A stretch of DNA of 64,000 nt from Polytrichum commune. Lineage: Eukaryota; Streptophyta; Polytrichopsida; Polytrichales; Polytrichaceae. The notes under the pieces were generated by a model. The model ran no database searches, was not told the origin of the DNA, and worked only from the letters and a program-made list of their open reading frames with translations. A program made the translations under genes and the position numbers. The stretch is taken from the NCBI GenBank assembly GCA_950295325.1, contig OX485803.1:1488001-1552000 (forward strand). The letters are read 5' to 3'. Positions 28,026 to 46,598 of this stretch are shown piece after piece (position 1 is the stretch's first letter; every line of letters starts with the position of its first letter).

Positions 28026-28649
28026 CTATGGTGGTGGGATAGGGTTTTGTTTGTTGTCAAGTTTCCTTTTATTTAGGACCAAATAAGTGAGGTATTTAAT
28101 GGCATTTTGGTGTATGTTTTTCATGAGGGTTTTGATGTGGGATTTGGGGATTTTCAGGTTGGTTAATTGTTCGATGGAGTTTTCGTGGATAGCACCTCTT
28201 ACTCCCGCGGTGATAGTAATTAGGGGGTTGGTATTCCATCCGTTAGCTCTTAGTGTGGTAATTAGCGGGTCATATTTGTTGTGTTTGTGTGTGCGGGCTT
28301 GTTCGGGGAATCTATCGTGGCAGTAGGTGAATTCAATGAATTGTACGGTGTGGCTTGGGGAGGGTAGTATTGGAGCTTGCGTTTGGTTGGGAGCTCCGAT
28401 AATGCACATTATGTCTGGTCTTAATTTGGCTTGACAATGACATGGTGCTTGCGTGCATATACATTGGAGGAGCCAGTCGGGAATTGTTTGGTCTTGGGAT
28501 TGGTTGGGTAAGTTGCCGCAATTGGTCAAGGTGAAGAACCTAGTGTTTTTATTGCCTTGTAGGGTTTGGGCAATGAGGTGGGTTGCTTTATTGTGTCTTG
28601 CGATTCGTAGGCCTATGGATGTTCGCATGTGGATAATAGGTGTGGTCAT
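28026..28649 (-). pseudogene. LINE C-terminal segment, shifted frame
   Basis: This 207-codon frame overlaps the end of the long LINE frame and continues it (RIARHNKATHLIAQTLQG follows the Cys/His knuckle of related elements). A TGA and a frame change near 28620-28640 separate it from the main frame. No known enzymatic motif is visible. Confidence 0.7.
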
Positions 28650-31600
28650 GTGTCTCTATCGTTGGTGCGACATAGTGTGCAGTTGGGGTTTTGGTATTTA
28701 AGGGGCCAAAATATATTTTTCCTATGGTTTCCCATGTATTGGGCATATCTAAATTTTAGAGTTTGGGTAATTTGTGTGTCGGGTATTTTATCATGTTTCC
28801 AAAAATGATTGGAGAGTTTTTGATTGATTTCTTCATTCGAGAGCCATTTGGCTACGTATGGGAATTTTTGTTTGGTTAGTGAGGTTTCTCGATTTTCGTG
28901 ATCTTTCATTATGAATGTGTGGAGGTTGCGGATGGCTCCATCATGTGTAGCCGTGGGGGAGGTTGCTAGCCAGTAGGGGGTAGCGTGTGCTATGTGTATG
29001 TGTGGCGTGTTTTCCGGTTTGTCTTTGAGTGTTCCTTCGTTGGCTAGTGCGTCCGCCATTTCATTGCCACTAATTCCCGTGTGTGCGCGTACTTTGTGTA
29101 TGTGTATCATGTGTGGGGTCCAATATATTTGGTGAACGATGGCTGCAATGAGTAATTTATCGGGGTGGTGGTGTTGAGATGTTGGGTGTTGGATGTGGTT
29201 GTTTATTAGGTAGATGTTGTTGAGGCTGTCTGTGAATATATGTGTGTCTATTTGGGTGGTTTGTATGGTTTTTATGGCTATAAGTATGGCGTTGAGTTCG
29301 GCTCTTAGAATATTGGGATATCCCGGTAATCTTTCGGCTATTTGGGTATTGTTGTTGGGACTGTATACCCCTGAGCCCGCGATATTGCCGACTATTTGTC
29401 CCTCGGAATTTTTGGAAGGTGGGATGAAGGACCCGTCCGTATATATGCATTGTTGTGGGTGGTATTTGAGGGGGTGTATTTGGTTGTATGCGGGGGGTAG
29501 GGGTAGTGTTATGTTGTTGTTGGGGGGGATGGTGTGGTTTGTGGGAGTGGTTTTCCATGTTTTGGAAAATTTAATGTGATAATTGTTGGGAGTGGGTTGA
29601 ATGGGATGGATGTCTATATGGGTGTTGGTAATTCTTTTTAGGACTCTATTTAGATTGTTTGGGAATTGTTGGTGCAATGTTGGGGTTAGCTGGTTGTGTA
29701 TGTATATGATGGATGTGAGTGATGGTTCCGTATATTGGTAATATTGTGGCCATTCTGGCGTGGGTTTATATTGTATGGTATGGGGTGGTATGGTAGAGAT
29801 GACGTGGATATCTGCTCCTTTGGTGAGGGTTATTTTTTGCGGTGTCCAATTTTGGTGGTTAATTATGAGGATTGTGCTTGTTTGTGGATCTTCTTTGGCG
29901 GCCATTCGGGCCCAATGAATGGCTTGTAAGGTTGTACTATAGTCTGTTGGGAATGCTAGGCCCCTACCACTCCATTTGAACGATTGTGCATGTCCTAGGG
30001 ATCCGAATAGCATGTCGTGGGTGTGTGGGGAGTGGTATTGTGTGAGTTGTGTGGGACACGTAAGTGGGGAGGAATAGTATGAGTGTATGATTTTGAAGGA
30101 GTCTATAAGTAATTTGGTGATTTCCGAGTGTATTGTATGATGTTGATTGTTGGGTAGTATGTGTTTAGGTTTTTTCTTGGGGAGTATGGTAATGTATCTT
30201 TGTATGAGCCATAATATTTCTGTTTCGAAGTTTTGTACTGGGGGATGTAGGGAGTTGGTTAGGTGGGTTAGGTTGTTTTGAGAGAAGCGTGCCCATAGCC
30301 ATTCTAGTCTTTCCGTGGTAATGGTGGCGAGGAATTGTCCATTTTGGTCGTATATGTGGGATACTGCGGCGCTTGTTTGTATGGTAGGTTTATTGGCAAT
30401 GATATCTTTGTCTGGATTACATTCTTGTGTGGATGTTTTGAGGTTGGTGATCCTAAGTGGGGGGTGTATGTGTTTTTTATCCTTTGTTTGGGTGTAGTCG
30501 AGGTAGTGGTCGTATGTTTGGGTGGCTTTTTGTTTGTGGGTGGTGGTGTGGTATCTTGTTATTAGTAGGAGGTTGTGTTCTAACAGTATGTTGTCCGGGT
30601 GTAAGAGGTCCTCTTCAAGGCGCCATTGTTGTGTGGTGCCATGCGTAGTGAGCCATTGACATAGATATTTTATTTTGAAGGCTTGTGCTCCCCATTTGTC
30701 CTTTCGGTTGGTGGTTTTTGTATCAACTATTTCATGGATGGTCCGTCCTAGTGCGGGGTCCACTCGGTGGGGTTGGTGGTTAAGGTCTAGGGTGTTATTT
30801 GTGGGCGTTGTGTGTGGTGGTTGAGGATGATTTTCAAGGGGGTTGGGTGTTGTTGTGATCGGGAATATTATTGTGGCTTGGTGTAGGGCTTCTTTGATGG
30901 TTTTGGGTGCGAGTTTGTATATGTTTCGGTATTCCTCTTGTGTGAGTGTGACCTTGGTGTTCTTGTTTTGAATTTGTGCTAGTGTTGTGATGCCATGTGT
31001 GTAAAGTTTGTCTAGGTATTTTTGGGATTTTGTTTTGGAGGCATCATCAAGGATGGTGTATATTCGGTTGGATAGCCATGCTTGCTCTAGTGGGGTTTTC
31101 CGAAGGGGGAATGCTCGATTGGCCGTAGTAACATGTATTTCGTATTCTTTTGTGAGAAAGAAGAGGGTTCGGGCTATGGGTGACCTTGTACATGCTTGTT
31201 GTTTAAGTTTCGGGAGGTGGAGTGAACCTCCGTATTTAGCTGCTATGTATTTAGTTAGGCCTTGATATATGTCGCCTAGTTGGCCTGGATCGTTGAGGGC
31301 TTGTAGTAATTGTTGGCCTATGCAATGTATGTAGTCGGATAAGAGGGAGGAGACTCCTATGCCAAACTTTTCATTTGTGAGGTGCGTGAGAATGTTGGCA
31401 GAACTTTTGGGTATGTTGCATATTTCTTTGGTTAGTTTGCCTATTATTTTATCCAATTTCGTAATGTCAGGTTTGGAGAATGAGACTGTATAATATGCAT
31501 ATGCTATACGGGGTTTTATAACTGTGTTTAGTATCTTGATTTTTTGTTTGAGATTAGCTGGGGATAGGGCTAGTAGTTTATTTTGTTGTTTAGCTTTTTG

Positions 31601-32266
31601 GAGATTGATTTCCCTTTGTAAGTTCCATTTGAGGGATGGTATGAGTTGGATACCTAGATAGGTGTATGATTCGTTTTGTGTGAGGGTGGGAAATTTTTTG
31701 GTTTTGTATGTGACGTTGTGTGATTGGATATACGCTTTGAATGTATTAGGCTTTAGTTTCGATTTATTAGGACAACCTGTAATGGCGCATATCGAAATGT
31801 TAAGGTCCATATGTGACCATTCCGCAAATTTTTGTAGTTTTGTGATTTGGGGTTGAATGTTTTGGATGTTGTCGGTTAATATTGCTAAGTCGTCCACGTA
31901 TGCCGTGGTGGTGCATATGGATGTGGATGTATTAAAGTGATATCCGAGGTTGTCTTTTTCTAACCATCGGAGTAGAGGTTCAAGGAATATAATAAATAGG
32001 TAGGGGCTAAGAGTGTCCCCTTGTATGATACTGCGGCTTATTTGTATTGGGGGTGTTATACCAAAGGTATTACCGGCAAAAGAAGTGGTTGAATTTTTGT
32101 AAATGTTGTCAACTATTTTTACCGTGTCTATGGGGAAGCCTAGGTCTTCCATGAGGGCAAGTAGGCAGGCGTGGTCGATAGATCCAAAAGCGTTGCGGAA
32201 ATCAATGTATGTAAGGTAGATATCTTTGGTGGTGAGTCTAGCGTCTTCGAGGGCGGCAATAATCAT
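28646..32266 (-). pseudogene. LINE reverse transcriptase-RNase H polyprotein, long open segment
   Basis: A single open frame of 1206 codons contains the reverse transcriptase palm: YIDFRNAFGSIDH (motif A), QGDTLSPYLF and TAYVDDLAIL with the YVDD box. A long linker follows, then an RNase H domain near residues 940-1090 with its acidic residues in TDGSFIPP, RAELNAIL, FTDSLNN and GNEMADALANEG. It ends in CTLCRTNDRDT, the start of a Cys/His knuckle. Because the N-terminal reverse transcriptase blocks upstream are interrupted by stops (for example after SQEGF and after EIPNY), the copy is not functional as a whole despite this long open part. Confidence 0.85.
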
Positions 32267-32726
32267 TTGGATTTGTCGGGATGTGTTTCGTTGAGGTCAA
32301 AAGCCTTCTTGGCTAAAATGTAGAATACGATGTTGTTCTCCGTAGTTGGTGAGAAGAGTCGTTATGGTACTAGTAAATAGTTTGTATATGGTGTTGGCGA
32401 GGGCGATTGGCCTATAGTTAGCTAGGTGGAGGGGGTCGTCTTTTTTATGTAATAGGATGGTTTTACAATGTTTCTAGTAGTTTGGGATTTCTCTTTGTTT
32501 GTAGCATTGCCGAAAAAATAGGAATAGCATATCGTGCCATTGTGGGGGTAGAATTTTTATTATGTCGTTTGGTATATTGTCTGGGCCGGAGGCTTTCCCC
32601 CGAGTTAGTCTTTTGACGCATTTGTCATATATTGTCCGAGTGAATTGGGTGCTAATAAGTGTGTTATATGGGCCTATTTTGTCAAGTATGATATCATTAT
32701 TTGTGTGTTATGGATATTTGCGTATG

Positions 32727-32736
32727 GCGCACATAC
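32727..32736 (+). repeat. Target-site duplication of the MULE, left copy
   Basis: GCGCACATAC is repeated exactly at 46589-46598. It lies within LINE sequence, and collapsing the two copies restores continuous LINE similarity. Confidence 0.93.
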
Positions 32737-32810
32737 GGGGAAAGTTACAGCATGAGCGTAGAGCGGTGAGCGTCATGTTTTCGTGAATTTCTCCGCTCAC
32801 TTTTAAAAAA
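32737..32810 (+). repeat. MULE terminal inverted repeat, left
   Basis: It contains CATGAGCGTAGAGCG at 32751-32765, matched in inverse orientation at 46560-46574. The outer 14 bases are diverged between the two ends. Confidence 0.85.
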
Positions 32811-34497
32811 TTTATTGAAACGTAAGGATCCTATTACCACTGAATTTGGTCCGGACAAAATTATAAATGTATATTTTTAGGGAAAAGAGTACCCCAAATC
32901 CGTGGAAGGGGTCCTACTGCAAATTTTTGTTATTATATATATAGTGAAATTAGGGCTGACGTCATCATTTATATGAAAGGGTGATTTAAATGAGGACCGT
33001 TCAAGGTTGAAATGAAATTGTGTTTTAATTAATTCACAAATTTATTTTAGTGTTTAAGGCTAAGGGCGTAATTAGGGCTGGCATCCTCGAAGCAATAATT
33101 TAAATGAGGAAGTTTATACAATCCAACAAGTGAATATTCTTGTGCTTGTTAATCGGTAATGTGGTAGGTCCCCTCAAATATGTTCATTAGGTATTGCGTC
33201 TAGGATGGGGATCATACTATGGAGTATATAGTCCGATCTTTTTTATTTGTTTGGGTTTCCATTTTTGTAGCTACATCTAACCACATACCACTCAAAGATA
33301 GGTGTTCATTAAGATAAGCAACTGAATTAAGCACGTCTACTTTAAGTCCAAAACCTCTTGACACATGGCTCTTTTGAAGTGGCTAGAAAAGGGTGATTAT
33401 CACGTACGAGCATAACTTTCATCCATACATTATCTAGACTATACAAACTAATTATGAATAGGTGCCACCTCAAAAAAATATATTCAAATAACACACTCCA
33501 ATGTAACTTATTTAAATTGTTGAGTCTCCCATGCAATATACTATAAAGTCTCTTGTATTAACCTCCTTATTGACATTGCTTCTTATATCTCAAAACCCTA
33601 AAGAATGGATGTTTTGATTTTTAATTCTCACTCCTTATTTTCATAATTCCCTCCCATACATCACAAATTTTGACATTGATGCTAGAACTATATGCTAAAT
33701 TATATGATGCACTTGACCATATTTACACCATAAATATGGACTTCAACTTAGTACTTAAATGGAGAATTTACCTCGTTAAGGAGATTAAAATATTCTATGA
33801 CAGGTTGCTTCTTTAAGAAACGACTAAAGATGGAGTATAAACAAGAATTTTCATTATTATTCTCGCCAAGGCCCCCTCTGAACTTAGGCAACTTTTAAGG
33901 GTTGGCAATCATTCAGCTTTTTCAGTTAGTACAATGCTGCAATTAAAATTGGCAGCATGAGCCCATAAACATAACCAAACGCCCCACGGGTGTTTGGAGG
34001 CAATAAAACTTATTTTTTTTTGTGTTAAACTGCTATTCATATTTTAAAAAATGCAAAATAACCATTGAAGGAAATGCATTGTTCTTCTAGTGAGATTATC
34101 CAATTGAAGAAATGAGTTGAAACTAGGGTTCAACTACGGTAGCATTTATGGAAGAATACAATATATATTTATATATTTCTAAGCTTTAAAATAAATAAAA
34201 TGCACTTCAACAATTTATATACAATTGACATAAAAACGGAAGACATGTCCTTACTAGGTTTTGTCAAATAGATTCACTTGAGTGTTCAAGTTTGAAGTGT
34301 GCACATGCATTTCAGTGCAAAGGGCTTCACTCAAACTTTCAAACTTCAACTTCTTTGAACTTTTTTGAGAAGTCTAGAACTATAGCTATGACACAAAGAA
34401 ACTTGTAAAAGTTTTATTATAAAAATAAATGGCCATTTCAAATGGCTACATTATGCACGTGGCGAGAGAAAAGAAACAAACATATGGATAGTCTTGA
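32811..34497. other. MULE left subterminal region, non-coding
   Basis: No convincing gene is present. At 33270-33350 lies sequence related to the 3' end of family C (see 1861-2236). The rest is AT-rich. Confidence 0.5.
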
Positions 34498-37400
34498 TCA
34501 AGGTGAACCAACATCGAAACTCTCGTCACATTGATCAGCCTCGACATCCATGTATCTAAGCATTGTAGGGTTGAAAACTTGACGTGGAGAATCTGAAAGG
34601 ATTGGAGATGGGGCGCGTATGAATTCCTGTGCTATACGTTCGGCATATGAAGGTAAGGCGAACAAAGTAGGAGGACTCATGTTGACATCAGCGTGGCGGA
34701 TCAAACGTCGTGCGAGACCTGCGTCACAAATTATAAAACAAAGTCAGCATGACAAATTATATGAATACATTAAATGTTTGAGAGACTTAAGACATGTAGT
34801 TAAGACGCACCGCAATACTTGCGACCCTTCTTCTTCTTTGGCGCAATGTCTTCCTCAGAATCAGAGTCTGTGGTTGAATCCGCGCGCTCTTCTGGTTGCG
34901 GGATCGCATCCACGTAAGGCTTGAGAAGCGCCTCAAAGATTTCTGAATCCGGCTCCAACGCGATGAGGTGTCGGTTCGAACGTTGGCAAGCAATGACAGA
35001 AGCACCTGCAGTTTGGAAAACGGAAATTAGAAAGTGGAATTCAATTTTAGCTGTTATAAACGATGAATGGAGAGATTGAGAACCTGTACTAGGGCTCCAG
35101 TCGCAGACGATATCACGCTCGTCTGTAAGACACTCGATGAAGCACTGAACAAAGGATGGGTCCTTCTCACGCGAGCCACGCCAAGGAAGTCCAGTAGGGC
35201 GTAGAAGCTGGGACTCGGTTGTCGTGAAGTTCGTCAAGTCATCGCGCTCTTCGGGAAGGATCTCCATTTGTACGAACTGCGGTCGCAATCGGCGAGTACG
35301 GAACTTGGAACTAAGGCGTAAAAAGACCTTAATGTTGAAGTTATGGGTCTGTAAGACAACCTCAAGGATTAGAGGGTTTTGAAACTGATTGTCGGATTGA
35401 GAAATTCAAATTATGAACATAAAAGATAATACCTCTTTCTGGTGTGGAAGGGAGGAGGCCATGGGAATGGGATTATAGCCCCACCAATCCCGGACAATCG
35501 TAAAATCATAGATTTTGATTTTACTATCTAACTTCTTCTCGATTCGACGGTCCTTGGGATGGAAGAGTATAACAACTCCGTCATCGGTCAAATGACAATC
35601 TGCGAAGGCGAAGAGTTGGTCAAAGTAGTCTGTCTCTCGCTTGTTCCACGATGGTACAGACATGGGGGAGATGACAGGCACGACCAAGTCTTCTGGAGCG
35701 TCAACAATCACGAGATCAATTCCAGGATGCCTAAGCCGCATTTGCATCGATTCACAAGGATAAGTACGGCCGACCCCGATCTGTATGAATGAGAGTAGTG
35801 GAAAGCATGAGTTACCGAAAATAAAAAACCTCAATAGTCCAAGACAATTTTCAAATTGATAGTGTTAGTGAGATATGGGATTGTGTGACCTTGATAATGT
35901 GGTCTACGATACGGACAAGTTGTCGATCCATGAATTTCTGGTGTTCAGACTGGTTAAGCAAGGCACAGAAGTTTCCATGCTCAAGAAACATCGGCAGGGT
36001 CGTTTTAAACGGCGAAGACGAAATGACACCTACACCTTTCGGGGGTGGTACACCACGGCCAGAGTGTGTGACATGAAGAGTTTGGCTAGATTGAACATCC
36101 AAGTTGGAAAGTGGAGGTGATGGCGGATTAGAAACCGTGCGTTGCGAAGTGTGAGTCGAAGCCAAAGGAGGTCCCGCCGGAATTTGAACTCCTGCAGGTG
36201 GGGCTGCCACAACGGAACCATCGCGAGAACGAACCTTCCCTCGACGTTGAACTTTTGGCTTCGGAGCAGGTTCAAGCTGAATTGCCTCCTCTTCGTCGTC
36301 GTCGTTTAAGTCAGTGACCATAGGAGCCGCTCCTCTTGCAGATGGTTCCAGGACAGGGACGAGGTGTTTCTCCTCCTCAGGAACGAAGTTCGGTGGGCAC
36401 TCGAGGAACCAACCACCTGTGAGCAACACATCATTGGGAAATCGATTGCGTTGGTCTTCAGTCCAAAGTTCATCAATAGGCGTTTGGGTGGACGGTTTGA
36501 GCTCAACATGAGCCGGAACTTCCCAAGCCGCAAGAGCACGTTTGGCGATGAGCTCTTGCTTCATGTACCTGCATATATGCGTTACATTTAGTAAGGGTGA
36601 TAGAGACAAAGAGAACACTGAATCAAACAAGAAATCAAATCATATAAACCTGTAAAACAAGCGGCCCGCTAAAATTCCACCTTCAATCTTTAGGAGGTCT
36701 GAACCTTTCAGAAACCTTGGGCTTGCATTTTCCGAGAGGTAGAAGGGGAAAGCCTTCTTCCACAATAGAGACCTCCATTTCTTCACGTATTCCGCCGGCT
36801 TGAGAACAACGGAGCTCCACTCAATGTTGATCTTAAGTTTAGCGACATAGTTGTCGATGTGGTCATTAAGGAAAGTAGACAACTGACATACATTATGAAA
36901 CGATGGGTGTTAGAAGTAACGACGATTACAACGGATTAAAAATGAAGAGCCTAGAGGAATTAAGTATCGTCATACCTGAGACCAGAAAGAAGCCCTTGGC
37001 AACCAGGCGTCGAGGAATTTGTCCTTCATTGGACGATCTAGAGGAAATCGGTAGGCTGCCCGTTTCTCGTCCGTTCCGTTCCACAATTGCAACCATTTTT
37101 CTTTGAAGTCTGGATGGACCTTGGTGGTTGCAATTTTATGAAGACGCTCAACGGTCAAGTCCAATGATTTCCCACTAGTATAGTGTTTATTGAGCTGGGT
37201 GGAAAATGGATATTTATATTAGAAAATTTGCGAGTTGAGAGTTGAGAGTTGATAGTTGATAGTTGAGATGAGAGTTGATAGTTGAGAGTTGAGATGAGAG
37301 TTGAGAGTTGAGAGTTGAGATGAGAGTTGAGAGTTGAGATGAGAGTTGAGAGTTGAGAGTTGAGATGAGAGTTGATAGTTGAGAGTTGAGAATACCTCTT

Positions 37401-38817
37401 GTTCAAATAACTCTCTATTGGCTGGGTTGGCGATTGCAACCATCTTGTCGAACATTTGGCTGCGCCAATACTTGACACACTTCGTGATGGCCTTGTCCAT
37501 CGCGCTCCAGACTCCAGGCCCAGTCCTTTCATTCTCGGGCACGGTCTCGTAATAGTTCGAGCAAGCAGCATCGGATGCAGCAGCGCATTGTCTCTGTACG
37601 AAAATAATTGAGATGCAAGAAACGCATGATGCAATTCATAATATGAAAACGATAAGCACATAACTTTAGAAAACTTACCGCGTGAAGGAATTTCACGAAA
37701 ATGTCCATGGTGAGTGGATACCATGACGGTACACGGGGTTTATAAGCCTCGCAAATAGTCATATCCTCTTTGCTAATAAGACCTTTGAAATGAGAAAGTT
37801 TGAATGAGCCTAAGGTTCGAATTCTTTGCAACTTGGCAATAGTATTGTCTTGAACATGATCATGTTCCGTCAACCTGTAAGTGACGATATGAGTATTAAA
37901 ACAAGGCTTCCCTGAATAAATGTAATATGAAATTAATTCAAATGGATTTGGAACTATACGTACCAGTTGATATCGTTCATGGCGTTGAGGAGCCTTGAGC
38001 ATTCCCCACGTGCGTCGAGAACAATACAGTCAACAGAAATGTACCAGTCAGGATTATTGAAATGGTACTTGTGGATATAACCCATCCACGCCGTCACGCG
38101 GTGATTGCCTTCGTAAACGTAAAAGTATTTATTCCGAAACTGATGGAGATCAGTATCAGAAGACAAATACTCTTCGAATTCATCATTAGCAGCCTTCCAT
38201 AGCGGGTTAGACCAGATGGCGTCATCCATTCGAACCGCAAGGTCATTGTCCGTGATGTCGAAAGGAGACACATACAAAACTCGATCTCCTTCTCGATACC
38301 CTTTGACGAACTCGTTCGCCAACATCTGGACGTCCGAATCGACAATTGGACGAACCTTCGGGTAGGTCTTGAGACGACACAGAGGAATTAGGAATCGAGA
38401 CTTCTTAATGGGTTTGGTGCGAAGATTGGAGATGACGCTATTGTAGTCACTCTTTTGCAGCAATCTCATCTCATTTGCGCTCCACATGGGGTCCTTGTCC
38501 TGCAGATGAGGGGGCATGTGAACAATGCCAAGTTCAACACCACCATGAGGAAGTAAGGGTTTACCTGAGCGTTTGTCGCTTGAATCGGGCGTTTCTTGAG
38601 TGGCATCTTGTATGGTATCGGCTTCCGCCACATGATGGCTAATATCGAAAGTGTGATGATCGGAGGATGGGACATTCGGAGGAACATCCTCTTCCACTTC
38701 GGGAACATCTGGGCTTCGAGAATGTTGACTGTCCGGGGGAATGCTAGAATCCTCCTCCACGGATTCTATCGACGGAGGTGGGACTTGATCAGGCATGGGC
38801 ACATCGGATAGTGTCAT
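34498..38817 (-). CDS. ParB-like/beta-class DNA methyltransferase-like fusion protein in the MULE, 10 exons
   Basis: Exons: 38817-37964, 37874-37679, 37593-37396, 37194-36976, 36882-36650, 36568-35890, 35780-35433, 35348-35084, 35005-34811, 34718-34498. All borders are GT-AG and in phase; the total is 3408 nt, 1135 residues. Residues 1-110 are acidic and Pro/Ser-rich. Residues about 150-255 look like a ParB/sulfiredoxin fold (VRPIVDSDVQMLANEF, then EGNHRVTAW at 236-244). Residues about 285-590 are unrecognised; about 600-790 are low-complexity. Residues 794-1040 follow the order of a beta-class amino-methyltransferase: DLVIVDAPEDL (motif IV position, DAPE at 820-823), CHLTDDGVVILF, then DPSFVQCFIECL and DWSPSTGASVIACQR...HLIALEPD (motif I position, 992 onward). 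A KKKKGRK stretch near 1058 may be a nuclear signal. The usual DPPY and FxGxG are altered, so catalysis is uncertain. The start could also be an exon edge, since CAG precedes the ATG. Confidence 0.82.
37222..37394 (-). repeat. Minisatellite inside intron 3 of the ParB/methyltransferase-like gene
   Basis: About 170 bp of nearly pure GAGTTGA/GAGATGA-type units (7-8 bp, grouped into 26-34 bp higher-order units) fill the 201 bp intron between exons 3 and 4. The ORFs running through it are artefacts of the repeat. Confidence 0.9.
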
Positions 38818-39062
38818 CTGGAAGGTAGGTAAACGAAACACAAAACACTTAGAAAAAGTATGAAGTAGTATAAATGACGACTAGCTAAGAAAGTGGAAAA
38901 ACGGCGAAGCAACTTGGAGAATACAATGTTGTAGTCATTCTCCGCTCAAAGCACTCTATCTATAGAAGCATGCACATAGGAATTAAACGAATATAGATTA
39001 GAAAAAATGCGCCATCATGAAATCACAAATAAATAAACAAATTTCAAGAGCAAAGTCAACAA
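38818..39062. promoter_or_regulatory. Upstream region of the ParB/methyltransferase-like gene
   Basis: This spacer separates the start codon from the 168 bp tandem repeats. No clear TATA box was identified, and a 5' non-coding exon cannot be excluded. Confidence 0.3.
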
Positions 39063-39545
39063 TTTCAAGAGCAAACTCTGAAACCCAGAAAAAAACCCAT
39101 TGCAGCTCATGAACCTACCTGACCTAACATCAGGACCCTACTGAAATTGCAAATCAAATATCAAGCAAAAAAAAAATGTTTTCAAAAATCTAACCTCAGG
39201 ACCCCTACGCCAGCGCAGGGGTCTCTCCATTTTCAAGAGCAACTATGGAACCCAGAAAAAAACCCATTGCAGCTCATGAACCTACCTGACCTAACATCAG
39301 GACCATACTGAAATTGCAAATCAAATATCAAGCAAAAAAAAAACGTTTTCAAAAATCTAACATAAGGATTCCTGCGCAAGCGCAGGGGTCTCTCCATTTT
39401 CAAGAGCAACTCTGGAACCCAGAAAAAAAACCCATTGCAGCTCATGAACCTACCTGACCTAACATCAGGACCCTACTGAAATTGCAAATAAAAAATGAAG
39501 CAAAAAAAAATGTTTTCAAAAATCTAACCTCTGGTCTCTCCATTT
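39063..39545 (+). repeat. Three tandem copies of a 168 bp unit
   Basis: Units begin at 39063, 39231 and 39398 with TTTCAAGAGCAA and share AAACCCATTGCAGCTCATGA and CCTACCTGACCTAACATCAG. Each includes an A-rich run and CGCAGGGGTCTCTCCATTTT near its end. The third is shortened. They lie just upstream of the minus-strand gene and could act as promoter or silencing-nucleation repeats, but that is inference. Confidence 0.9.
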
Positions 39546-39671
39546 TTGAAAAATCTAACCTCGGCCTCCCTCCTCCGACGTCCCGTCTCCTCCCTCCTCC
39601 GACTTCCCCTCACCTTACCTCCACTTCCCTCGGCCTCCCTCGTCCCGAACTCCCAAACAGAGTTGGGACAC

Positions 39672-40123
39672 TGCCGCCTGCCGGAGGGGCGGGGCAAGGT
39701 TCGGGAGACTTTGGAACTCAACCAGCTAAAATCCGGCCCTTCCCAACATCTACCGGTTTCTTCAGAATTTGACCGGTTGCAAACTTGTTGCCATTAATTT
39801 GGACCGGCCAATATTCTATAATATGTTTTTTCAAGTGCCGGTTAATTTATTCTTCATTGTAATGACAACCGGCCAAGAACTTGGGCATGTGTTGCTCCTA
39901 CTTAACACATGCCCAAGTTTTTGGCCGGTTGTCATTACAATGAAGAATAAATTAACCGGCACTCGAAAAAAAATTATAGGATATTGGCCAGTCCTAATTA
40001 ATGGCAACAAGTTTGCAACCGGACAAATTCTGAAAAAACCGGTATAAGTTGTGAAGGGCCGGATTTTAGCTGGTTAAGTTCCAAAGTCTCCCGAACCCTG
40101 CCCCGCCCCTCCGGGCAGGCAGC
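39672..40123. repeat. Foldback element / long inverted repeat (about 450 bp hairpin)
   Basis: The left arm (39672-39890) and right arm (39905-40123) are inverted copies with few mismatches. They share CGGAGGGGCGGGGCA next to the outer end, AACCAGCTAAAATCCGGCCC, and ACATGCCCAAG by the short loop near 39897. A transcript would fold into a long duplex. It may be a foldback-type MITE that inserted into the MULE. ORFs over the arms are not genes. Confidence 0.92.
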
Positions 40124-40444
40124 AAGAGAACTAGATGCCTACCCCTTCTAATGCTACCAGAACTAGATTGCAAGTCACTATAAGATGGAATGGGTTCCAC
40201 CTCACAATCCTCTCCCTCACAATCACCATATGTGATTTTACTGGATGTGTACTTTTTATCATCCATATTATGGTTGTATTCCATCTGTTAACATTTATAG
40301 AGTCAAATTTGCAAATAATGGAGTAACATCGTTTCATCGTCAACTGCCTAAGAAAGACATCTATAATCAGGTGACCAACAATCGATATAAACAATCGTAA
40401 TATATCCTTATGACATCTACCCAACATGTGTTCCTAATCCATCG

Positions 40445-41131
40445 TCAAATTATCATAAACATCGAATTTCCAGGGTTTGGGATAAGTACCAGGAATCCTT
40501 CATCTAATTCTTCTTCCTCTCCTAGTTTCTTGCAGTCCATCACATCGCGTTCTTCGACTTGATCTTCGTTGGGTGCGCCCTCAATTGCAGCACTTCCGTG
40601 CTCGTCTTGCTGCCCAAAAATTTCACCAACCAGTGTCTCACTTTCTTCGTACTATACACATCAACGCAAGGTAGAATATGACTTAGGTTTAATACTCATC
40701 TTTCAAGGCTTTAGGGTCTTGGAACTTACAACTTTATCGATCCCTTCTTCGTCACTGTCATGTTCAAATCCCAAAGAATCACTCCTCGATGATGAGGGCC
40801 TTCTACATTCTTGCTCTTCAATTTCATTGTCCCTTTCCCCTCCATCGTCTTCTTCTTCACCATTAACATTTTCAACAACAGCATCCAAGTTCAACGGCCG
40901 CATCTCGATAGTCTTTCTAAACATTCATGGCTCGTCCTCATCGTTCTTATCTACTTCATCTACTATTCGATCGTCTTTGCAAGAACCCGGGGCATCCCTC
41001 TTCCGCAACGCGTTCCGTCGCAAAGCCTTGGCTCCACTGAATTTTATACCACCTCTCTTCTTCTTCCTCCCCCGCCCTCCCTCATTCACTTTGTCTGTTT
41101 TACTACTCGTATCCTCCATAGTTGGCTCCAT
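40445..41131 (-). CDS. Small basic/acidic protein gene of the MULE, two exons, one internal stop
   Basis: Exon 1 is 41131-40730 and ends at a strong donor (GTAAGT); exon 2 is 40651-40445, after a TATAG acceptor, and ends in TGA. Phases agree, giving about 202 codons. The N-terminal part is strongly basic (GGRGRKKKRGGIKFSGAKALR), then come acidic stretches (DEVDKNDEDEP, NGEEEDDGGERDNEIEEQE) and an acidic C-terminal part (GEEEELDEGF). A TGA interrupts exon 1 at 40925-40927. The composition suggests a nuclear or chromatin-associated accessory protein, but I recognise no domain. A TATA-like AATATAAAGG lies about 100 bp upstream. It may be a nonsense-mutated copy. Confidence 0.55.
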
Positions 41132-41688
41132 AGCTGATCAAACTACACAAATTTGTAGAACAATGATAACACCCTAAACCGAACTACAACACAACTTGTA
41201 TTTGAATGACCTAGTCCACCGAATCCCTTTCCTTTATATTTAATTTCTAGGAAGCTACGTCATCGAATTATAATCCCGCGTTTAATAAAACGCGGTATCC
41301 GAGATTAGGTCACTGACAACACTGACATCGGTTACTAATCTATTTTGAATTTGTCGATATATTTACGCATCTCCCTTGACAATGACGGCCTCCATAAATT
41401 TTCAAATTATCATATGTTTCCATAAAAGGTTCATACACCTTTAGGGTTTACCTTCATCATTTCGGCGTAGCATATATTAGGTTATCAAGAATGAGTTATT
41501 TTTTAGTTCGTAGGAAAATTAGTCTATACTGACATGTATCATATTTAGGGGTCATAAGGTAATGACTATTACTGGAGTACATTCTAATCCTACATGAAAC
41601 ATGTTGTCTAGAATTGACATGAATAAATATTGACTATTAATTGATCTAATAGGTTGTCATGTATTTGGGTATTGGTGTCTACCCAAGG

Positions 41689-41698
41689 TATATATAAT
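41689..41698 (+). promoter_or_regulatory. TATA box for the plus-strand MULE transcript
   Basis: TATATATAAT lies 53 bp before the ATG at 41751, a normal distance for a short leader. It is the best core-promoter signal in the centre of the element. Confidence 0.55.
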
Positions 41699-41750
41699 AC
41701 CCGATTATTGGTACCCTTTCTTTCATGTCATCTCATCATATTCTTCTCCA

Positions 41751-42182
41751 ATGGGTACTGACTCATGTCTCCCAAGCCTTGCTCCATTAGGTGCTCCTAG
41801 TTCATCGCAAATTCACACCACGTTTTCATTCGATGGTTCTCCAGGCGTCAACAACCTGAAGATTTTCAACCCACCTGACTGCTTAGTTACTCCGGCGGTC
41901 GTCGTTCCTAAACCATAGACTCCATCTTTGCAGGCAGTTGATGCAACACTGATACAGAACAAGTCTACTTTCAAGATTCATGCATATTCTAGAGCAGGTG
42001 TTATTAAACCTGGCACTTACTCTAGATCCATATTCAGGAGTGCCAAAGGTCAGAAACCCGATTGCGCAGGATGCACTGCAGTTCGTAGTTTAGGGATTGA
42101 CCATTGTCATAAACATGACGGTGACAAATATGGCAAAGGGCCCCATATGGCAAAGGCCCCATTTTCGTCTGGCACTCCATGA
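41751..42182 (+). CDS. Short Cys/His ORF upstream of the transposase, one internal stop
   Basis: The frame runs 144 codons from the ATG just after the TATA box, with a TAG at codon 56 (41916-41918). The C-terminal part has CAGCTAVRSLGIDHCHKH, a possible zinc-binding cluster. It ends about 190 bp before the transposase start. It could be a separate small accessory protein, or a 5' part of the transposase transcript joined by splicing that I cannot see. No family is recognised. Confidence 0.45.
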
Positions 42183-42375
42183 TTTATTGTTCACAATCCT
42201 GTTCATACATGTTATTATTATTTCTCATATTTAACCAAACATTTTTTGACTACATTCTGTACATGTCTGGGATGTCCAACGTCTTCATCAACCTCTCATG
42301 TATATATCCCATTGTTTCTTTTCGATCCCTCTTTTGCAAATTCCCTCTCCCATTACATTGTCAAATTGTTTCTCA

Positions 42376-45300
42376 ATGTCTTCCGCTGCTGTCCAAGCTC
42401 CACTCGTCGATGTCATCGAACTTGTTTCTCCTGGATCTCTTATCCCTACATGCATACCTCCTGGCCCTGATGGAACCACTGATCTCACTCCCCAGTGGCT
42501 ATCCATTCGTTATGGTTTCGATGCTGATAGCTTGTGGTTAGAGACAGATGTTGTCGATCCGGATACTCGAAATGTCCTTTATTCCTTATACGTCCAGCCC
42601 GTAACGTTAGACAATAATGCTTGCGTTTGGAAACTCAAGCCTGGAAGGTATCGCGTCTTTGGCTTGTTGGAGTCCATGAACGCGACTACTGTCCTACTCA
42701 CTCCTCGCAGTTCCTCCACATTGTGCACTGAAGCCCCCTTACTGTCTCGTGTCAAGATCGAACCAGGTCTCCGCGTTAGCATCGATTTGTCTGATTCTTC
42801 TGATGAAGAGGGGAGGCCTTCCCATCCATCAATCCGGTCTAGTGCTAAGCGTCCATCTCCCTCATCTTCTCAAGATTCACGTAGGACTACTCCTTCCCTT
42901 ATACCTTCGCAAACTACTAAATTCATAAACATTCTTCCCTCCCTTCGTTCCCTGGGTAGTATGCCTGGAAGCAAGTCAGTACTTAAAAAGCTGAATTATG
43001 ATTCCATCCGTACTGAGATTGTAGATTTCCTGCCACCGTCGTTCAATGGGGATGTAATCTTCATTCTTCCTCCCACACTTCCATCTGCCCTCCATAAGAA
43101 TGCTAAATCTATGGAAGGTATGGACAAACGTTACGATGGCCATATATGGACAAAAACTATGACTACTAACATCAGTAATACGCTGGGGCTGTCATTCCGG
43201 TCGTCTAACTGTGTAGGTCATTTTCAATGCCACAATCCCACATGTGGGTTCCTGCAGCGGCCTGAACGCGCATATGGAGTGAACGAGGTCGAGTTCGAAG
43301 GTTCTTCCAAAGATGTTTTCCCTGTTGCAGACGCTCCACCTCCAACTTCAACATTAGTCTGTAAGATCTGTAAAAAACCTCCTGTTTGTGTAGCTTCTTG
43401 TGATGCAAAAATCTTTTACGTTTTTGGAGATGATACGCAAGAGCGTGCTTGCGTCCATGTAGGCAACCACAAACATCCTGTCAAGGTAGGAGACTATAGG
43501 GGCACGCGGAAGATAATCGACGATTTTATCGAACAACATGTTGAGCGCAACCCGCAGGCTACCATTTCCAAAACAGTCTTGGAAACGTCCAAGGATGTTT
43601 TAGGTAACGTCTTGCTCCGCGAAGAAGACAACCCTCCCACCTTACTTTCTCTCGAACAGCTAGAGCCTATCTTCCAATGTTGCAAGGAGCTCAATTCCCC
43701 TAACTTAAAAAACCGTGTCTACAGTTTCAAGTATTTGCGCAGATATGGCGTTCTTGATGGCATCACTAAGCTCAGAGGGCTTAGCAATTGGGCCTACGTG
43801 CAACGAAACATGTTTCCAGGCCAAGGTGACAACTCTGACAAGGTCTTCATATTCAAGATGTCCGAGGTGGGACCTGGCAGCGGTGTTGACCTTGTCCGCC
43901 GAATGCAACCTAGCGGCGATTTAGAGCACTCCTGGATGATGTTCGACCACGTTAAACGAGTTGCCAATTGGACCACCATGGCCTGCCACGTGTACGACTC
44001 CTCTTACCAACGTGTACTCACCATTGCTTGCTGTGATTTCCTGTCTGAGGACAAAGATGCTCAACTCGTTTTCTGGAAGAACCTTAACCATGTCATGGGT
44101 AGGCATGGAATACACAAGCCGCAGTTCAAAGGTTTCATGGCTGATAGTGCGCAAGCCAATTGGAACGCTGTGCGCATCATCTACGGATCCGGAGACCCAA
44201 AGATACCCATGGAAGGCTGCGAGCGAACGTGTTATTTCCACTGGGCGCAATCCCTAGAAAAACACACCAAACAATACATCGTGCACGAATTGCAAGATCA
44301 ACACAAGAAATTGTGTATGCAGTACAAAGATGCACGGTCTGTGGCAGAGGCTGAAACACGTTACTTGGCAATCAAAGCCTGGTGGACATCTTCGGGTGCC
44401 ACCTCTGACGCTGGCCTCCACCATTTGAACCACTGGCTTGCGTTTTGGCATTTCCGATACAGGCAGTGGGGTGGATTCATGGAACTGGTAAGTATACACT
44501 CTTTCATTCAAATTATTTAATTCTTTAAGTTTGCATTCTTTTCTCTGCGTCTAATGTAGTATCTAAACAATATTAAATCTTTTGCTTTTAAATGGCATGG
44601 CCCACCACGATTACTCCTTGCTCACTTGAGTTTCCGAACATTTTCTAAACAGTTGCCTTCATACAGGAGAAGAAATATTCTCCGGATGAACTAGGTGAAA
44701 TGCCCTCTTGCAACCTTGCTGAGACCGTTCACAACAAATGGTTGCAAGCATCCGGCAATAGGGGTGGCGATCTCTACGTGGCAGCCGTCGACGATTACGT
44801 TAGAGCATTCCTGCAAGTGGTGGGGTACTATCAATACCTCAAAGGTGGAGCGGGAGGCTCTGGACCCTCGAGAGAAGAACTTCGACTTTGCACATCCCAA
44901 CGCCGAGCTCACCGAACCGGGGATCCGACTACCCTGAACGCAGCCGTCTTGAACATGCCCGGAGCCGAAGATTTCTGTACTCGAAACGCACACCTCGAAG
45001 GAGCTGAGGTTTTTGGGTCGAGGAAACGGAAGCCGGATCTTCCCCTTGGCGCCGAAGAAGAAACTCATAGGCCAGACACTATTAATTTTTCACGTCCTCG
45101 AGTGGGTCGGAGGGTGACACGTGCTCGTGCTCAAAATTTGAGTACCATCCATGAGGAAGTTCACGTGGAAGTGGAACGCCCAGCACAGCCCCCTGCCTCA
45201 ACTGGCATAGATATTGGACGGGTGACAGCCGTGGAGGAGACTCGTGTGAATGAGAAGCTATGGCACATTGCCCGAATTAATAAGGTTTCTGCGAAGGCTT

Positions 45301-46132
45301 GTTGGGCGCAGATGGCTGTCACTCGAAAAAAGTGTACAGCCCGTATCGTCCAAAACGGGAAGAGCACACCAGCTCCCACATACACTGGCCTTTGGACCCA
45401 CCCTCAAAAAGGCAACCAGAAGGTGGTAGAGCAGTTTTTTTTTTCTGTGCTGACGATATTGAGAGGTGTGTGAAGGGGTATCGTCGACGATGGATAGAGC
45501 CATTTTCGGATTACGAGGAACAACCTCCCATCCCATCGGTTTGGCCTGTGAAGATAGGGACCAATCTCACACGTTCCGAGATTGAGGTGTTGGAGAATGC
45601 GGGATTTCAACTTCCCCAAAAGCAAAGCGTTCCTGTGAGCCGCACATTCAACAGTTCAGCACCGCCACCGGATCTGTCACAGGTTCCAATGCCAGATAAT
45701 GCGGACGTTTATCCTAAAACACGAAAGTCTAAGAACATGCGCCGCTCAATCACTTGTGCCAGTTCGAAGCACATGCAGAACTTTGATTCCGCTAGAGCAA
45801 TGAAGGCAAGTATTCTGAAGGTAGTAATGATACCTCAATCCGGTTTTGGATGCGTTGTAACTTTGCAATCTAAACCAGCTCCCACGGAGTCAGTTTACCA
45901 TCTCTCAATCAGTGCCTACCCAGACTGCAATTGCCCGGCGTTCAAAGAGACAATGGCTAAGCTGGGTAGACGCAGGTGTCCATTCCGACCTTGTAAGCAT
46001 CTTTACTATATATACGTACAAGTCTGCAAACTAGAGGCCGACCATGACCTCTTCATGCATGCGCCTACCCTCAGTTTCTTGGAGGTGAAAACAATTCTTG
46101 AAAGGGGGATCTTAGCCCATGCTACAGTTTAG
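42376..46132 (+). pseudogene. MULE transposase with C-terminal SWIM zinc finger; single frameshift in a T10 run
   Basis: Exon 1 is 42376-44487 (704 codons) and ends at GTAAGT; exon 2 starts at 44667 after a CAG acceptor and keeps phase. I chose the ATG at 42376 (MSSAAVQAPL); the frame is open back to 42298. Cys/His clusters near residues 300-375 (CHNPTCGF, CKICKKPPVC, CVHVGNHKH) fit an N-terminal DNA-binding domain. The catalytic region contains VYDSS (Asp about 541), FMADSAQANWNAV (Asp about 590) and CERTCYFHWAQSLEKH. The C-terminal SWIM pattern CNC...PCKH lies at about 45925-45995. At 45435-45444 ten T residues shift the frame: the upstream frame ends at about 45473 while the SWIM-containing frame runs on to 46132. 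In MULEs this protein binds the TIRs and cuts the element out. Confidence 0.85.
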
Positions 46133-46559
46133 AGTAATCAGCTTTATTTATTAGTCTCATATATATGTTTTTTTTCATAAACGTGTATGACACACGTCAC
46201 TCTATGTAATTTCACAATTTAGTGAATACGTATATATAAATATATATTTTTTTTTTCGCTATGTTAAATTTATGAATCACTTGTACTTGTCCTTCACTTG
46301 TGCTCTTCCGTGAACATGTGTCCTTGTAGTTCTCTTCAATGAAGTCAGCTATTTCCTCCAAAACTCAGTCACATATAAATTTTTTCCATATGTCAAGCCC
46401 ATTTTGCACGGTTATGGGTACTAAATTCCACGGCCATAAGGCTCAAATATTTGGATATTATGAGGAATATACCATTTAAAATAATAATGTTTTATTTTTG
46501 GAAATTTTATTACTAAAAATAAAAAGTCTCCGCTCGAAATTCAGAAAATCTACGTTCTA
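46133..46559. other. MULE right subterminal region, non-coding
   Basis: AT-rich, with a T run and TATATAAATATATA near 46230-46250. No gene is seen. Confidence 0.5.
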
Positions 46560-46588
46560 CGCTCTACGCTCATGCCCTAGCAACGCCC
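46540..46588 (-). repeat. MULE terminal inverted repeat, right
   Basis: It contains CGCTCTACGCTCATG at 46560-46574, the inverse of 32751-32765, and ends at GCAACGCCC before the duplicated target. Confidence 0.85.
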
Positions 46589-46598
46589 GCGCACATAC
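46589..46598 (+). repeat. Target-site duplication of the MULE, right copy
   Basis: GCGCACATAC is identical to 32727-32736. Confidence 0.93.

Follow-up and report, generated by a model that had tools for sequence, protein, structure and literature searches.

Palindromic parS sites serve as loading points for ParB proteins, and, to our knowledge, few transposons encode proteins directed against host silencing. The subject of this analysis is a gene, called the cargo, that lies within a DNA transposon of Polytrichum commune resembling the Mutator-like elements (MULEs), in a 64,000-nucleotide stretch of contig OX485803.1 (the window); its predicted product joins a ParB-like to a methyltransferase-like part. 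A comparable described protein is Bce_0392 of Bacillus cereus, in which a ParB domain is fused to an adenine methylase and which nicks DNA; ParB-superfamily domains are described as common in mobile or invasive elements (PMC5512222). VANC, encoded by the VANDAL elements of Arabidopsis, which are MULEs, leads to a loss of methylation throughout the elements, and its targets are often tandem repeats (PMC5735166). Retrotransposons of dinoflagellates and charophytes have captured cytosine methyltransferases (PMC5890265), while the accessory open reading frames (ORFs) of MULEs include mudrB, antisense PMD ORFs, SET and OTU (PMC6446971).

The cargo resembles each of these systems in part. As in the bacterial and phage ParB-methylase fusions represented by Bce_0392, a ParB-superfamily domain is united with one of adenine-methyltransferase type (PMC5512222). 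However, about 500 residues separate the two domains here, the gene has nine introns and resides in a eukaryotic transposon, its motif IV is altered and palindrome arrays accompany it; the two proteins were compared by description, not by sequence (PMC5512222). In common with VANC, the cargo is the second gene of a MULE-like element, and tandem repeats, the known targets of VANC, are candidate targets here. It differs from VANC, as the latter is described, in its predicted ParB and methyltransferase folds, the window protein itself being without a Pfam match. The retrotransposon enzymes are also methyltransferase-fold transposon cargo, once in charophyte algae (PMC5890265), but they are C5 enzymes in retrotransposons, whereas the present protein has a predicted amino-methyltransferase fold and belongs to a DNA transposon. 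MULE accessory ORFs offer the parallel of an extra ORF, often antisense to the transposase (PMC6446971), although the words methyltransferase and methylase are absent from the main text of that survey. Finally, the locus shares with the ParB–parS system a ParB-fold protein and palindromic sites clustered beside its own gene. Here, in contrast, the sites are of about 22 bp, stand in up to tens of tandem copies and are putative targets, and no ParA was seen, none having been searched for.

No description of a ParB and methyltransferase cargo with palindrome arrays in plant transposons was found in the open-licence papers searched, a scope that takes in no preprints and few subscription journals; the initial annotation had likewise known of no such MULE cargo in plants. 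Transposon-borne DNA methyltransferases (PMC5890265) and MULE accessory genes (PMC6446971) are already known, and it is the ParB-methyltransferase cargo with its arrays that appears to be new.

The reading preferred here, with a probability of about 45%, is that the cargo is a long-standing second gene of a lineage of MULE-like DNA transposons, whose protein would recognise the element's own palindromes and help the element to persist. It builds on what the analysis shows, namely the anatomy of the element, its copy number, the linkage of the cargo to a transposase, the selection on the cargo, both folds and the arrays beside more than half of the examined cargo loci. Binding to the palindromes, and a resulting escape from silencing or continued mobility of the element, are proposed because of the ParB–parS, VANC and ParB-methylase precedents.

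The cargo gene and its predicted domains

The cargo gene runs on the minus strand from an ATG at 38817 to a stop codon at 34498 and comprises ten exons, all with GT-AG borders, that together hold 1135 codons without a stop. This exon chain, as first proposed in the initial annotation, was rebuilt from the sequence as the best-scoring of 64 open chains among the splice sites tried, so that small details of the exon borders are uncertain. Exon 1 (37964..38817) encodes an N-terminal tail and the ParB-like domain. It is followed by exons 2 (37679..37874), 3 (37396..37593), 4 (36976..37194), 5 (36650..36882) and 6 (35890..36568), the last of which contains the end of a middle part and then a low-complexity linker. 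According to the gene model and the alignments to CcrM and to the family, exon 7 (35433..35780) carries methyltransferase motif IV and the target region, exon 8 (35084..35348) PWRG..EK and the first half of motif I, and exon 9 (34811..35005) the second half of motif I, with HLIALEPD, and then the tail. Exon 10 with the stop codon occupies 34498..34718.

The nine introns are conserved in a diverged relative. Spliced alignment of a family-B copy at C1:65848760, which carries two stops and is only 26-45% identical to the window gene by segment, gave nine introns with phases 2,0,0,0,2,0,0,1,1, identical to those of the window gene. Subfamily E has a nearly identical pattern, with nine introns in one locus (L035, the last at a different phase) and eight in another (L034), and a contig from another organism (L050) has five or six introns at corresponding positions. 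This common structure in B, E and L050 indicates that the gene structure is old and real. A chance ORF or wrong splicing was rejected on the basis of the nine introns conserved in the B copy, and bacterial contamination on the basis of the nine introns and the many copies on chromosome-sized contigs. As a separate observation, intron 3 contains a variable GAGTTGA minisatellite (37228..37391), and this intron is not equally long in all copies.

The complete protein of 1135 amino acids matched no Pfam family at E<=1, and a PDB search was also without result. The structure of exon 1 was predicted separately from 19 contiguous relatives, giving a model with a predicted local distance difference test score (pLDDT) of 74 and a predicted template-modelling score (pTM) of 0.73. 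In the structure comparison, 29 of the 31 listed rows had entry names such as ParB, Noc, KorB, PadC, sulfiredoxin, free serine kinase or SbnI, the best with a Z of 7.2 (2.5 A over 91 residues). We take free serine kinase and SbnI, together with the remaining two rows, 1vk1 and 2hwj, to be members of the ParB/sulfiredoxin superfamily. The fold is called from the uniformity of this list, single Z values of such size being sometimes common. The domain spans approximately amino acids 139-284 (37966..38403) and includes EGNHRVTAW; in its G-x-x-R pocket motif, GNH is present in six of six rows and R in five of six, and in the 19-row alignment G, N and R are nearly invariant and H is invariant. On the predicted model, the N-terminal part is thus a ParB/sulfiredoxin fold, so that the ParB-like assignment made from EGNHRVTAW holds at the level of the fold.

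The conserved GNH(R) motif, and the ability of ParB-superfamily domains from mobile elements to nick DNA (PMC5512222), would also suit a nuclease or nickase that aids excision or integration, as reported for the Bacillus cereus ParB-methylase. This alternative is considered quite unlikely, as binding or NTP-switch roles would suit the modelled fold too.

Profile searches relate the C-terminal part to DNA methyltransferases. PF01555 was found in five of five subfamily members at E<=5 (best 4.3e-8), the window protein alone giving E 0.078, below the cut-off. A five-member profile matched DpnA over the motif I region (3e-7) and CcrM across the domain (E 0.0014, profile 11-228), with the order motif IV, target region, motif I; the methyltransferase-like character and motif order previously read from the window sequence are thereby supported. 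The motif names used are those we take to be canonical. Motif I keeps D.....G.S and an acidic residue past the next strand. By these comparisons, the C-terminal part is a beta-class N6/N4 amino-methyltransferase fold.

Motif IV departs from the known pattern. Alignments to family members and to CcrM place D-x-P-E, in the window Asp-Ala-Pro-Glu (35691..35702), opposite the canonical DPPY, and D-x-P-E occurs in subfamilies A, B, C, E and F and in L050; one decayed A copy has D-A-P-K. The catalytic tetrad (D/N/S)PP(Y/F/W) of beta-class N6/N4 amino-methyltransferases was not found in the family. The methyltransferase domains of the other subfamilies are 28-38% identical to that of the window, and conservation of the altered motif across this distance argues that it is not decay; altered chemistry or sensing of S-adenosylmethionine (SAM) would therefore be expected. 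Enzymatic activity cannot be assumed from such a tetrad, and changed or lost chemistry appears more likely than standard N6/N4 methylation.

An active DNA amino-methyltransferase, placing N6-methyladenine (6mA) or N4-methylcytosine (4mC) on the element's own DNA with the ParB-like part as a targeting domain, is accordingly graded as rather unlikely. The similarity to CcrM over the whole domain and to DpnA over part of it speaks for activity, as do the purifying selection on the domain, the Asp, Gly and following acidic residue kept in motif I, and the first Asp of motif IV, kept in all subfamilies seen except D. Nevertheless, the first Pro is lost, subfamily D has Gln at the first position, and the fourth position is Glu or Asp, where known amino-methyltransferases have an aromatic residue. 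Methylation of adenine or N4-cytosine by the domain, if it occurred, would be relevant to the dispute over 6mA and 4mC in plants; if a D-x-P-E domain works, it would represent new chemistry or a SAM-sensing reader.

The element, its copies and selection on the cargo

The whole transposable element measures 13,852 bp (32737..46588), as delimited by alignment with five other genomic copies, whose main pieces are 88-98% identical to the window and whose alignment ends at about 32737 and 46588. The alignment is continuous or nearly so in four of the five, with gaps in the copy at C3:57.6 Mb. The element is bordered by the target-site duplication GCGCACATAC on the left (32727..32736) and on the right (46589..46598); duplications of 10 bp flank five of the six copies, none being visible at C3:40.7 Mb. 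Comparison of the ends revealed imperfect terminal inverted repeats of about 55 bp, the left one (32737..32791, plus strand) containing CATGAGCGTAGAGCG and the right one lying at 46534..46588 on the minus strand.

The transposase gene (42343 to 46132) is divergent from the cargo. It consists of a first large exon (42343..44520, plus strand), which has at least 62 matches in the genome and no match to a Pfam transposase, a second exon read from the sequence (44649..45473, plus strand), and a C-terminal part with a SWIM-like CxC...CxH motif (45284..46132, plus strand). The zinc motif is visible as CNCPAF...CKHLYYIY, of which family B retains the cysteines and the histidine, with no Pfam SWIM match. 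Although the cargo of the window copy is intact, the transposase parts before and at this motif are mutually out of frame, as they are at C6:9.55 Mb. They are in frame at C7:40.4, C1:17.5 and C3:40.7 Mb and in one B copy, the transposase at C3:40.7 Mb being broken earlier and that at C1:17.5 Mb carrying stops.

The assignment to a transposon class draws on several of these features. MULE target-site duplications span 8-11 bp (PMC6446971), and the 10-bp duplications fall within this range, with terminal inverted repeats present. No Pfam MULE match was obtained for the transposase in six of six members, comparison of its profile with seven PF10551 loci of this genome gave no match (hhalign, E 0.36), and none of the listed PF10551 places coincides with a listed transposase match. 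The structure model of the transposase (pLDDT 37) was too poor for fold comparison. Of the earlier proposal that the gene lies inside a plant MULE, the transposon itself stands, with its ends, duplications and linkage to a transposase; membership in the MULEs finds no Pfam MULE or PF10551 profile match. The element is called MULE-like here on the strength of its 10-bp duplications, inverted ends and SWIM-like zinc motif.

The cargo is a multicopy gene. At least 16 close loci (family A) were found in the genome among the best 41 of 3687 candidates scored, and a divergent transposase lies within 10 kb of the cargo in 14 of these 16, which upholds the expectation that the gene would be found beside transposases elsewhere in the genome. 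The exceptions are C2:69.4 Mb, with none among the matches listed, and C4:9.07 Mb, where the nearest is 26 kb away in another arrangement. Family B was seen at six loci, with a ParB part about 50% identical to that of the window and an associated transposase about 60% identical; two of the six adjoin a transposase among the matches listed. The ParB part of a third subfamily has at least 209 genome matches, mostly separate first-exon places (best 150 of 1735 candidates scored), and the methyltransferase part of a fourth at least 208, counted by exon (best 150 of 2460). Judged by these ParB-encoding sequences, the genome holds over 100 cargo genes or their remnants, and these are of several ages. 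Of 14 family-A copies covering most of the gene, two have a fully open frame, that of the window and that at C5:15643491, and the remaining 12 carry one to four stops and zero to three frameshifts.

The initial suggestion of selection on the open frame was borne out by the ratio of replacement to silent change (dN/dS, omega) across copies. Omega is 0.49-0.82 in recent family-A pairs, a level expected of copies in decay, and 0.31-0.44 in those listed pairs that join different family-A sub-clades. Fixed differences were counted in 12 of the 14 family-A copies (C1:12.9 and C4:4.85 Mb being left out), grouped into g1 (six copies), g2 (three copies) and a loose g3. Between g1 and g2, the whole gene has 42.5 silent and 42.5 replacement differences (omega 0.28, p 4e-9). 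The ParB part shows 12 silent and 3 replacement differences (omega 0.06), the middle part 10 and 6 (omega 0.15) and the methyltransferase part 4 and 0; the linker (3 and 5) and the N-tail (9.5 and 25.5) are near neutral. As estimated from these counts, the folded parts are under purifying selection while the copies multiply, the linker and N-tail being not measurably constrained.

Capture of a functionless host gene fragment, as in a Pack-MULE, would account for the fact that most copies are broken. It is nevertheless very improbable in view of the purifying selection on fixed differences, the presence of the gene, with largely the same introns, both in several diverged subfamilies and in another organism, and the number of ParB-encoding places, which exceeds 100. 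That a host gene was captured recently was likewise rejected, owing to the same selection and the diverged subfamilies.

The genome itself contains LFY-type genes (PF01698, four matches, with 0 of 14 prokaryote controls positive), as befits a land plant or closely related alga. The architecture is also found outside this genome. A scan of prokaryote contigs yielded a 4.7-kb contig, CADCWO010000058.1 (L050), with the whole architecture and no stop or frameshift across the introns. The contig is labelled uncultured Synechococcales; a cyanobacterial origin was rejected because of introns at cargo-family positions, and it is probably mis-binned DNA of another eukaryote. Scans of viral contigs with both domain alignments gave no confirmed relative. 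A tblastn search of phages with the methyltransferase part of subfamily E returned weak matches in 29 records (the best-ranked with E 8e-3, 26%), and a ParB-methylase fusion was not found in the annotation of two phage loci among these matches.

Two further observations concern the copies. Subfamily F (L044-L049) accounts for 46 single-exon methyltransferase matches among those listed, and five of the six fetched are closely alike, which suggests a recently active element family. At C2:48.05-48.07 Mb (L029/L033), a 98%-identical A transposase and its upstream region are joined, in a different orientation, to a broken C-type cargo, apparently a chimera.

Palindrome arrays and the proposed role of the cargo protein

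Tandem arrays whose units hold 22-bp palindromes sit between the two divergent genes. In the window, a 167-bp repeat present in 2.8 copies (39063..39531), and larger in other copies of the element, contains the palindrome ACCCCTACGCCAGCGCAGGGGT with two mismatches at 39201..39222 and a second of the same type with three at 39368-39389. Ten of the 167-bp units are anchored in the family-A copy at C3:40.7, while family-B units measure 96, 113-127, 117 and 307 bp. In a scan allowing at most two mismatches at a GC content of at least 0.5, two B elements had 63 and 48 palindromes, against 0.4-0.6 in simple two-base-block shuffles. Five other A loci had 4 to 13 (12, 4, 3, 3 and 1 of the array type) and the interval between the genes in the window two (one of the array type), shuffles giving 0-0.8 across loci. 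The B palindrome has 1903 exact matches genome-wide, as opposed to 0 for the reversed pattern, and its first 50 sites on both strands are mostly clustered, one cluster adjoining the B transposase at C1:2.25 Mb. Comparison loci (seven short MULE loci of the genome, two LFY loci and one phage locus) had 0-1 sites each.

The prediction of arrays was tested on three more cargo genes, two of subfamily D and one of E, in the 2.5 kb upstream of each. Both D loci have two differing arrays (CCCTGTGCGTTAACGCACAGGG and GTTTGGGTCGNNCGACCCAAAC), whereas the tandem repeat at the E locus, of 360 bp, holds a single TCTCGG-NN-CCGAGA core besides degraded ones. In L050, a 106-bp repeat upstream of the gene contains four sites. 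TCGG-NN-CCGA is a recurrent core, present in B, C (L038, L040 and L043), E and L050, and TGCG....CGCA arms are common to A and the first D array. The palindromes are better conserved than their flanks in one B element (98% versus 55-66%) and in the other (99% versus 79-84%), at sites chosen as palindromes with a GATC-type centre, a choice that favours high palindrome conservation.

On the preferred reading, the cargo protein would bind the arrays of about 22-bp palindromes of its own element through its ParB-like and following parts, and would concentrate there as ParB does on loading at parS. The methyltransferase-like domain, with a motif-I-like SAM pocket and D-x-P-E for DPPY, might then mark or sense the DNA. 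The likeliest result would be that copies of the element stay expressed or mobile despite host silencing, a role comparable to that of VANC in VANDAL elements. Such self-recognition, if true, would represent a novel means by which a transposon manages its DNA. As the cargo combines bacterial partition and methylation parts with a candidate target, the family-specific arrays, its binding, specificity and co-evolution are directly testable. A wider proposal, that eukaryotic DNA transposons in at least two organisms possess a parS/ParB-like system is more doubtful. In it, a ParB-fold protein fused to a methyltransferase domain with a re-engineered D-x-P-E motif would load on the arrays, spread from there, and either mark the element or shield it from silencing, with protein and palindrome core co-evolving across subfamilies.

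Several results weigh against this account of the cargo. The arrays separate the cargo from the transposase, and it could be the latter that reads the palindromes. Furthermore, a locus at C7:40428400-40437400 (L030) has a 95%-identical A-like transposase with strong upstream arrays of other types (AATCCCACGGATCCGTGGGATT and CCCACGGGTGAACACCCGTGGG), and no ParB cargo was found in its 9 kb. Both points would agree with the arrays being transposase or replication sites, the cargo then serving as a transposition accessory, as proposed for mudrB of MuDR, that does not bind them. This is held to be unlikely, because 95%-identical A-type transposases in the window family and L030, the two covered by this comparison (the C, D and E transposases lying outside it), accompany different palindromes, and the TCGG-NN-CCGA core recurs beside homologous cargo in B, C, E and the other organism.

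The remaining adverse points concern the arrays, the domains and selection. With an array defined as three or more like sites, arrays were present at 11 of 18 cargo loci examined (A 4/6, B 2/2, C 2/6, D 2/2, E 0/1 and L050 1/1). Four of the six C loci are without three like sites, and both C arrays lie in introns, the upstream regions of C being outside the scan; the 2.5 kb upstream of the E gene contained no near-perfect sites. Loci comprising the gene alone, with at most about 0.5 kb of upstream sequence (L013-L019, L034 and L037), were excluded from the count and showed no arrays. The window copy has only one array site with two mismatches and one with three, and the rest of the window has five scattered palindromes in 50 kb compared with about 0.8 in shuffles. 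The family-A palindrome is no better conserved than the rest of its 167-bp unit (46th percentile), and a single TCGG-NN-CCGA palindrome is located beyond the element, next to the copy at C6:9.55 Mb. As for the domains, no ParB family of Pfam matches the ParB-like region, its best Foldseek matches in the PDB (ParB, PadC and sulfiredoxin) have E >=0.14, and motif IV of subfamily D reads Q-F-P-D. Finally, g1 and g3 show zero fixed differences in codons 791-1030 of the methyltransferase part, with 14 silent ones in the ParB part; some exchange between copies, by recombination, gene conversion or domain exchange, is therefore likely and weakens the g1–g3 comparison.

Some neighbouring features were also recorded. 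A fold-back repeat adjoins the tandem array of the window (39681-40114), with two 149-bp arms, 92% complementary and 136 bp apart. Upstream of the A-like transposase, L030 contains an ORF of 691 amino acids with DUF7869. Outside the element, positions 28646-32293 (minus strand) hold an ORF resembling those of long interspersed nuclear elements, with reverse transcriptase and RNase H; its match to PCIF1_WW, just above the cut-off (31.3 versus 31.1 bits), would be an odd passenger for a retrotransposon.

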